From Rhizonema sp. NSF051 (GTDB taxonomy: Bacteria; Cyanobacteriota; Cyanobacteriia; Cyanobacteriales; Nostocaceae), in NCBI GenBank assembly GCA_029379265.1, contig JAQYWN010000005.1, forward strand, positions 1 through 32,787: a stretch of DNA of 32,787 nucleotides. Direction: 5' to 3'. The notes beneath the pieces are model-generated. The model did no database searches and was not told where the DNA came from. It worked only from the letters and a program-made list of their open reading frames with translations. The position numbers and the translations under genes were made by a program. Position 1 is the first letter of the stretch. Each line of letters starts with the position of its first letter. Below are positions 13,126 to 15,031 of the stretch, in pieces.

Positions 13126-13130
13126 AAAAA

Positions 13131-13236
13131 GTTATGAGTTATGAGTTTTGATTCCTGACTCCTAACTCTTGTAGGGGCAGGTTTAACTAGATAACAGACT
13201 ACCCAATAAATATTGATAGGTAAAACCTGCCCCTAC
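13131..13236. repeat. Dispersed repeat: gttatgagttatgagtt...ctcctaactc plus inverted pair gtaggggcaggttt/aaacctgcccctac
   Basis: Arms 13171-13184 and 13223-13236, 14-bp perfect; same arrangement as 6540-6786. Confidence 0.92.
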
Positions 13237-13707
13237 TCACAACTCGATCAACATTTCCCTCGTGCCAGTTCTAAAACCACATGAAGCAAACAATTGCCGA
13301 GCTGCTTCGTTAACCTCTGCCGTATCAAGGCGAATTTGTTTGACACCCATCTGATCAAAGCGTTCAATACTGAGCATCACCATCTGCCGTGCAATTCCTT
13401 GATGACGATATTCTTGCTCAACCCAGATCTCGTGGATAAAAGCGAATTCCTGCAAACGGTAAATCGGTACTTCACGTTCAACTATCGCTGCGAGAAACCC
13501 CACCAGCCGCAGTTCATCCTCAGCTACCAGAAGCACGCTTCGCTCCTGACTAGCCAGCCGCGTTAACCATCCTTCATAACGCTGTTCTGGATGTGGTAAA
13601 AAACCAAATTTGGCAGAGTCCCAAGATTCGTGTAAAGCACAAATCTTAGCAACCATCGGTAAAATTGCAGGTACGTCAGTTATTGTGGCAGAGCGAATTA
13701 TTAGCAT
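13237..13707 (-). CDS. GNAT family N-acetyltransferase
   Basis: IHEIWVEQEYRHQGIARQMVMLSIERFDQMGVKQIRLDTAEVNEAARQLFASCGF, GNAT acetyl-CoA binding motif. Confidence 0.9.
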   Translation of the reverse strand: MLIIRSATITDVPAILPMVAKICALHESWDSAKFGFLPHPEQRYEGWLTRLASQERSVLLVAEDELRLVGFLAAIVEREVPIYRLQEFAFIHEIWVEQEYRHQGIARQMVMLSIERFDQMGVKQIRLDTAEVNEAARQLFASCGFRTGTREMLIEL

Positions 13708-13847
13708 ATAAGCGGTTGTAAATCAAGGAAATAAACAATCAAGAAAGTTAAAAAGAGGCATTTTAGCTTGAGGAAAGGGGGTCAAACCCCATAGACACTT
13801 GATCCCCAACTTGCTTAAGATTAGTGTTCTCACAAAAAATAACACCT

Positions 13848-13882
13848 ACGCCAGTTTTTGCACCGTATTTACTGGCGTTTTT
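13848..13882 (+). terminator. Intrinsic terminator-like hairpin, copy A
   Basis: acgccagt (13848-13855) / actggcgt (13871-13878), followed by a T-run. Confidence 0.6.
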
Positions 13883-14002
13883 GTCTTAAAGAGAATTGGC
13901 AATTACGAATAACAAAGAAGTAGCCACAGCAGGGGGTTTAACCCTGTAGACAGTTCGTTAACAGTTTGTATATAGTGGGTTTTCACAAAACCGATAATAC
14001 TC

Positions 14003-14037
14003 GCGCCAGTTTTTGCACCTTACTTACTGGCGCTTTT
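14003..14037 (+). terminator. Intrinsic terminator-like hairpin, copy B
   Basis: gcgccagt (14003-14010) / actggcgc (14026-14033), followed by tttt. Confidence 0.6.
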
Positions 14038-14306
14038 CGTCTCTAAGTGAAATTTATACTAATAAGGCTCGGATTGTCCCTTTGAAGATCGGAACGACCT
14101 TAAGGACGAAGTGCGAACACGGCGAAATAATTTAAGATAAAGTGGCGGGCAATAAAACTCAATAATTGTCCTTTGTCATTAGTCTTTGGTTATTAGTATT
14201 ACACTCGTACAAATGACTTTTGACGCCCTCCTCCTCGCTCCTTTTAAGGGTGCGATGAGTTTAACCTCGATCTTTAATCGGGATTTCCACACTCCCATAA
14301 GGTTTT

Positions 14307-14858
14307 ATGAGACGTAAATCTACAGGTAGAACAACTACTGCTACTAATACTACTACGACTAAATCTCCTGGTTTCAAATCCCCCATGTTTAATTTCAGCA
14401 CCATAGCAGTTATGGCGGGTATACTTATTTTAGGAATTGGGATTGGAATTGCTTTTAGCTCCACAGCGACCTTTTCACCAGAAAATGTCGCTTCCCGTGA
14501 ATTTATTGATACTAAAGCGCCAAACCCAGAGCTTTGCGTACAGTATGGAGCCAGTGCTATGGTCATGGATGCCAGATTGTTTGTGACTCTTAACCCCTTT
14601 AATGTCTACGTTTCTCAACCGAGTATGCGTCCTGGATGCGTTATTCGTCAAACCGACTGGGCGATTTTAGAGCAAAAGAAGCTTGTGTCCTCAGAACAGG
14701 TGAGAGATTGTAAGCAACGGTTAAACACCTTTGGCTTTACAGGTGACTTAAACAGTGACAGACCTGATATTAGGTGTATTTACCAGAATGAGGCTGCTCA
14801 AAATTTCTTTATCGCACAACCAGGAGCAGTTCAGTCGCAGGAGACGCAAAGATTTTAA
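14307..14858 (+). CDS. DUF3172 domain-containing membrane-anchored protein
   Basis: N-terminal TM segment then ELCVQYGASAMVMDARLFVTLNPFNVYVSQPSMRPGCVIRQTDWAILEQ, typical of the cyanobacterial DUF3172 family. Confidence 0.8.
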   Translation: MRRKSTGRTTTATNTTTTKSPGFKSPMFNFSTIAVMAGILILGIGIGIAFSSTATFSPENVASREFIDTKAPNPELCVQYGASAMVMDARLFVTLNPFNVYVSQPSMRPGCVIRQTDWAILEQKKLVSSEQVRDCKQRLNTFGFTGDLNSDRPDIRCIYQNEAAQNFFIAQPGAVQSQETQRF

Positions 14859-14872
14859 GGAAGTTAGAACAG

Positions 14873-14907
14873 TCCTGAGTACTCAGTACTGAGTACTGAG
14901 TGCTGAG
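14873..14907 (+). repeat. Short tandem heptanucleotide repeat (ctgagta)n with palindromic character
   Basis: cctgagtactcagtactgagtactgagtgctgag, 7-bp periodicity. Confidence 0.8.
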
Positions 14908-15031
14908 CGTATTATTTTTTAGTCTATTCATAGATTGTACTTAGCTGACAGGAGAAAAGGTAGATATACTCTTGCCAGCTGCTTCGGTGTGGCTGCGATC
15001 GCACTCTTTTCAGAACTCAGGACGAATAATT

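Follow-up and report, generated by a model that had tools for sequence, protein, structure and literature searches.

Within the window, by which we mean the whole 32,787-nt stretch of Rhizonema sp. NSF051 DNA that was analyzed, a 107-nt repeat occurs in two copies, copy A at 13776-13882 and copy B at 13931-14037, between a GNAT acetyltransferase gene on the minus strand (13237..13707; Pfam PF00583) and a DUF3172 gene on the plus strand (14307..14858; Pfam PF11371). The copies align without gaps, are 70% identical (E=2.8e-13 when A is compared with B by blastn), and are spaced by 155 nt, in agreement with an earlier note on this DNA that had reported two similar non-coding copies about 155 bp apart; they are the only two copies in the window's genome, and both are retained in 4 of 4 Rhizonema genomes examined. 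The GNAT gene, with ndhN further to its left, reads away from the small RNA (sRNA) genes proposed here and lies outside the system, and the DUF3172 gene is a neighbor in this genus only, the neighbors of the sRNA genes differing from genus to genus. Short repeats also occur nearby: an inverted pair TGTAGGGGCAGGTTTA / TAAAACCTGCCCCTAC is found downstream of ndhN, among short repeats at window 13130-13245, and GAGTACTGAGTACT is repeated at window 14880-14906, among short repeats beside genes (14870-14910).

Copies A and B have in common a G/C palindrome, the hexamer TAGACA, a stem with loop TTTTGCACC, and a T-run, and each is best read as a complete sRNA gene rather than as part of one long structured RNA. 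In copy A the palindrome GGGGTCAAACCCC (13778..13790), which contains a GGGN5CCC of the HetR type and keeps its position in homologues, is followed on the plus strand by TAGACA (13792..13797), at a position that other genera conserve only moderately, by the -10 box TAAGAT (13816..13821), matched by TANNNT at the same distance in 27 of 28 homologues, and by the terminator stem ACGCCAGT/ACTGGCGT (13848..13878) with the conserved loop TTTTGCACCGTATTT at 13856-13870. The corresponding elements of copy B are the palindrome AGGGGGTTTAACCCT (13931..13945), with its GGGN5CCC, GGGTTTAACCC, at 13934-13944; TAGACA (13947..13952, plus strand); the -10 box TATAGT (13971..13976, plus strand), seen both by promoter scan and in the homologue profile; and the plus-strand terminator stem GCGCCAGT/ACTGGCGC (14003..14033) with loop TTTTGCACCTTACTT at 14011-14025. 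The promoter scan assigns one sigma-70-like promoter to each copy (TAGACA-N18-TAAGAT at 13792-13821 in A, TAGACA-N18-TATAGT at 13947-13976 in B), and the GGGN5CCC palindrome lies 31-32 bp upstream of the TANNNT -10 box.

Because it stands directly upstream of a predicted promoter, the palindrome is more likely a DNA site than part of an RNA; it is best read as a transcription factor site of the HetR type, and TAGACA as a -35-like element, so that the RNA would be about 58 nt long and would not comprise the whole module of about 110 nt. Placing the start 6-8 nt past the -10 box and the end at the terminator gives plus-strand predictions of about 58 nt for sRNA A (13828..13885) and about 59 nt for sRNA B (13983..14041): transcripts should start near 13828 and 13983 and finish within the T-runs, at 13885 and 14041, and the 5′ palindrome, lying outside the RNA, should not be transcribed. 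Each predicted RNA is unstructured and A-rich at its 5′ end and closes with a terminator carrying the conserved 15-nt loop UUUUGCACCGUAUUU. A conserved promoter and an intrinsic terminator around a short non-coding segment, the marks of an intergenic sRNA gene, are both present. Of the architecture that the earlier note had ascribed to both copies, the palindrome, TAGACA, the terminator stem with its loop, and the T-run all stand; the first G/C hairpin is not confirmed as an RNA element, being positioned upstream of the predicted -10 box, nor is a second hairpin near cacaaaa.

That second hairpin (helix 1) is not supported, on two grounds: it is paired in just 50% of cells across 22 homologues, and, since it begins 2-3 nt past the -10 box in both copies, it would be only partly transcribed. 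The plus strand of both copies folds more stably than shuffled sequences (z of -3.3 and -2.9) and the minus strand of neither does (z of -1.2 and -1.6). Folding of the transcripts by themselves leaves the 5′ part largely open in most homologues and gives a single strong terminator stem around a 15-nt loop, and a frequent inner 3-bp UGC/GUA pairing exposes ACC. The reported change from A-T to G-C between the copies is real and falls at the base of the terminator stem (13848/13878 in A vs 14003/14033 in B); compensatory change as evidence for structure, on the other hand, found no backing among the 22 homologues, where the terminator stem is preserved in 97% of cells, only one pair varies on both sides (with a G-U intermediate), 5 of the 8 pairs are invariant, and no covariation above shuffles was found (445 of 500 shuffles reached the observed score). 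With so few stem changes and no statistical covariation, what is conserved is the sequence, above all the loop, and this points to a seed for base pairing more than to a structural part.

We searched for homologues with a covariance model, R1, built from the transcript alone and including no upstream sequence, which matches copy A at 13821-13887 (76 bits) and copy B at 13976-14042 (73.6 bits). Strong matches (E<=2e-8) were found in 37 of 217 genomes of the heterocystous family, representing 15 of its 56 genera; no convincing match was found outside the family, an order-wide sample yielding one weak match that is an ordinary terminator. A DNA search of 120 relatives found the family in 20 genomes, and among 84,980 named species genomes scanned for an exact pattern 26 stretches were found, every one in heterocystous cyanobacteria (Fischerella, Calothrix, Nostoc, Goleter, Rhizonema, Richelia, Scytonema, Dulcicalothrix, and one unassigned Nostocaceae), the closest named relatives of the window being a Scytonema MAG (L050) and two Rhizonema MAGs (L032, L038). 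Tandem copies of about 60 nt with their own promoters, as in NsiR1, are present in Rhizonema; most genera have single or dispersed copies, one genome (G035) has a diverged second copy nearby, and several Calothrix-like genomes have two dispersed copies. Even with lax filters no clear copy was found in 13 genomes of the genus containing the HetR of Nostoc sp. PCC 7120, in which HetR identity to the 7120 protein reaches 100%. No plasmid relatives of the sRNA genes were found.

Rfam, which the earlier note had suggested checking for NsiR1 and the Yfr families, gave no match, none of its covariance models (Yfr1, Yfr2, and others) exceeding the gathering threshold. A mobile-element end, the identity that would have counted against the sRNA reading, is excluded by the presence of only two genomic copies and by flanks that are unrelated between genera. 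We discarded weak R1 matches that lie inside a coding gene (L107, L109-L112) and others that are ordinary terminators (L087, L103-L105, L113, L121, L253); the latter illustrate that AGCGCCAGA...TCTGGCGCT is an ordinary terminator stem in many cyanobacteria, sometimes preceded by GGGGTCA...AAAGACCC repeats. The proposal of a duplicated small RNA rather than a protein is upheld by a promoter, core, and terminator conserved in 15 genera with no conserved start codon, and we consider it very probable that a conserved sRNA family exists.

HetR is the master switch for making nitrogen-fixing cells. Since R1 contained no upstream sequence, conservation upstream of the matches is an independent test. 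An exact GGGN5CCC is found upstream of 23 of 28 non-redundant copies compared with 3.4% of background 140-bp tiles, where the 23 are related by descent and do not represent 23 independent events, although their contexts are unrelated and the surrounding bases have diverged; its center falls solely at -63 to -66 or at -78 to -82 from the stem. A profile aligned on the -10 box (TANNNT in 27 of 28 copies) gives its strongest signals at a proximal GGG...CCC, whose bases are conserved in up to 26 of 27 copies (as is the C at -28), at a weaker distal GGG...CC lying 16-17 bp above the proximal palindrome, and at the -10 box itself, with no conservation further upstream; three copies, Richelia and Calothrix rhizosoleniae among them, have GGGN6CCC at the proximal position. 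The motif GGGN5CCC alone is weak evidence, the window containing 3 such sites where 2.7 are expected by chance. Control of the sRNA genes by HetR is nonetheless likely, if unproven, on the basis of i) the fixed position of GGGN5CCC; ii) the published finding that 5′-gggn5ccc is indispensable for HetR binding (PMC4649674); iii) the resemblance of these sites to the hetP HetR site, GAGGGGTCTAACCCCTC (PMC4192349), the Fischerella copies of the palindrome reading GAGGGGTCTGACCCTCT; and iv) a 299-aa HetR in the window's genome that matches solved HetR structures over its full length, with R62, E71, and K73 intact. A GGGN5CCC core at the promoter and a host HetR with intact DNA-contact residues are what a member of the direct HetR regulon should have, and both are present here. 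The DIF1 motif TCCGGA was not found in 13600-14100, and an NtcA site (GTAN8TAC) was rejected as absent by sequence check. Elsewhere in the window's genome a dispersed repeat (L228 and L230; G000:C172, C347) shares GTGTGGGGTCTGACCCAC and CGAAAAGCCGA.

Our main reading, to which we give a probability of about 0.6, is that the locus holds a tandem pair of genes, each with its own promoter, for a single small regulatory RNA that acts in trans, is activated by HetR, and pairs with mRNAs. Possible, though in our view doubtful, is that the same tandem sRNA genes serve a general stress response and that the palindrome is bound by a factor other than HetR with a GGGGTNNNACCCC-like operator. An unrelated order-wide sRNA family has the promoter palindrome GGGGTGACACCCC and hosts that may not all possess HetR; the window's genome has just five GGGGTCNNACCC sites, two of them inside the dispersed repeat; and the missing DIF1 motif points the same way. 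Against such a factor, the present sRNAs occur only in the heterocystous family. Their operator, frequently present twice, 16-17 bp apart, is placed farther upstream, by one helical turn, than that of the order-wide family, and closely resembles the hetP HetR site.

Position would also be compatible with one long structured RNA, or with tandem attenuator-like cis-regulatory terminators in a DUF3172 leader, since both copies precede DUF3172 (14307-14858) on its own strand and the modules of about 110 nt, taken whole, fold better than shuffles; but the neighbors in other genera are unrelated, the palindrome and -10 box show the fixed spacing and conservation of promoter elements, and read-through would be stopped by two strong terminators that stand 265 nt ahead of the gene, which makes this reading improbable. 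Ordinary terminators or repeat-element remnants with no RNA function are a still poorer explanation: although the GCGCCAG/CTGGCGC stem does recur in the family as just such a terminator (weak R1 matches L087, L105, L113), the 15-nt loop, -10 box, and palindrome are conserved jointly at different loci in 15 genera, and the window's genome has no further copies. Hardly credible, finally, is a very small peptide gene read in register with the stem. That frame is open in both window copies, beginning with GTG in copy A (VFSQKITPTPVFAPYLLAFLS), and in the Rhizonema and Scytonema copies and the Nostoc linckia type frame 0 runs through the stem without a stop; however, a start codon is missing from copy B, the majority of the other genera either lack a start or carry an in-frame stop immediately upstream, alternative frames vary, insertions have lengths not divisible by three, and a Shine-Dalgarno sequence is absent. 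We rejected the peptide gene because no open frame with a conserved start is found among the homologues.

Returning to a HetR-activated regulatory RNA, the duplication, the conservation, the fixed positions of palindrome and -10 box, the terminator, the want of a conserved frame, and a HetR with intact contacts are directly supported; we infer that the RNA is transcribed, that HetR regulates it, when it is made, and that it acts on mRNAs. A dimeric regulator, most likely HetR, would occupy the GGGN5CCC palindrome centered about 44 bp upstream of the start, and would aid RNA polymerase at this promoter, whose -10 box is good; an RNA of about 58 nt might then be produced in cells committing to the heterocyst fate. 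The 5′ end of this RNA would be A-rich and single-stranded, and its 3′ part would be a Rho-independent terminator. The large conserved loop of the terminator, UUUUGCACCGUAUU, is predicted to stay unpaired and is the likely seed for contact with target mRNAs; its CACC is complementary to GGUG-like ribosome-binding sites, and translation repression would be the most likely effect. The RNA is probably trans-acting, since genomic contexts differ between genera. A search of 14 host genomes for exact complements of 11 nt of the loop found no target gene recurring across genera beyond shared coding sequence: the matches that recur lie within conserved protein-coding stretches, such as the GAK motif of petJ, with no 5′ leader shared across genera, and petJ was rejected as a target in this genus because its match is explained by the petJ protein sequence. 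Function is thus argued from anatomy, that is, from an open conserved loop UUUUGCACC able to cover GGUG-type ribosome-binding sites.

Heterocyst differentiation is a main model of bacterial cell differentiation, and to our knowledge the regulatory RNAs described for it come almost wholly from Nostoc 7120. We see roughly even chances that the present genes define an unnamed sRNA family, directly activated by HetR at one GGGN5CCC operator or at two lying 16-17 bp apart, that is spread over 15 genera and absent from the genus of 7120; if so, it would constitute a post-transcriptional arm of heterocyst development not demonstrable in that model organism. We know of few promoters with a clean HetR site, and the family offers a compact, repeatedly conserved promoter-operator pair for testing HetR action in Fischerella or Calothrix, as well as a conserved candidate RNA seed from which to begin finding targets.

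The family is probably new but of a known type, a small conserved promoter-to-terminator sRNA gene, duplicated in Rhizonema and probably under HetR. A longer locus of Nostoc-type genomes (L084, L086, L088, L092-L095, L115), a conserved intergenic stretch of about 190 nt that is probably another, longer sRNA, may be a distant relative with a shared 3′ part: ACCGATAACAC and the GCGCCAG/CTGGCGC terminator stem are common to both, whereas the longer locus has the loop UUUUAUUCCGCUUU and no GGGN5CCC. The window's genome also contains a second, unrelated tandem sRNA-like pair downstream of gatB (L231:1487-1593 and 1670-1776; G000:C478; also L254-L307), with palindrome GGGGTNNCACCCC, -10 box TATACT, and core TAGATGCACCCTGATGATCTGGAGAGCTG...GGCTCTCC-TTTTTT; this second family is found in 211 of 217 family genomes and in 196 of 368 order-sampled genomes, with 1-9 matches each, often tandem, and may be a known cyanobacterial sRNA, though Rfam gave no match.

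Among RNAs described in Nostoc sp. PCC 7120, 4547237r (Northern-verified), 19177f, and 1938093f, of 51, 62, and 70 nt, occur in heterocystous genomes only (PMC4734099), and by their descriptions resemble ours in this and in being short; identity with any of them is unlikely, as none of the 13 genomes from the genus with the 7120 HetR has a clear copy of our family. NsiR8 and NsiR9 are HetR-dependent and likewise restricted to heterocystous cyanobacteria (PMC4734099), but are 171 and 122 nt long compared with about 58 nt here, and the present family shows no clear copy in those 13 genomes. NsiR1 of 7120, an RNA of about 60 nt, is encoded in tandem diverged copies with their own promoter and terminator and depends on HetR (PMC9045159). 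It is distinguished by description, and by the absence of any Rfam match to our sequences: NsiR1 promoters have DIF1, whereas TCCGGA is absent here and a GGGN5CCC palindrome is found instead, and the NsiR1 array comprises 12 copies upstream of hetF, whereas the present genes occupy another locus with GNAT and DUF3172 neighbors. In size, in tandem and slightly diverged copies, in individual promoters and terminators, and in belonging to a heterocyst former, NsiR1 is nevertheless the closest in kind to the sRNA genes of Rhizonema.
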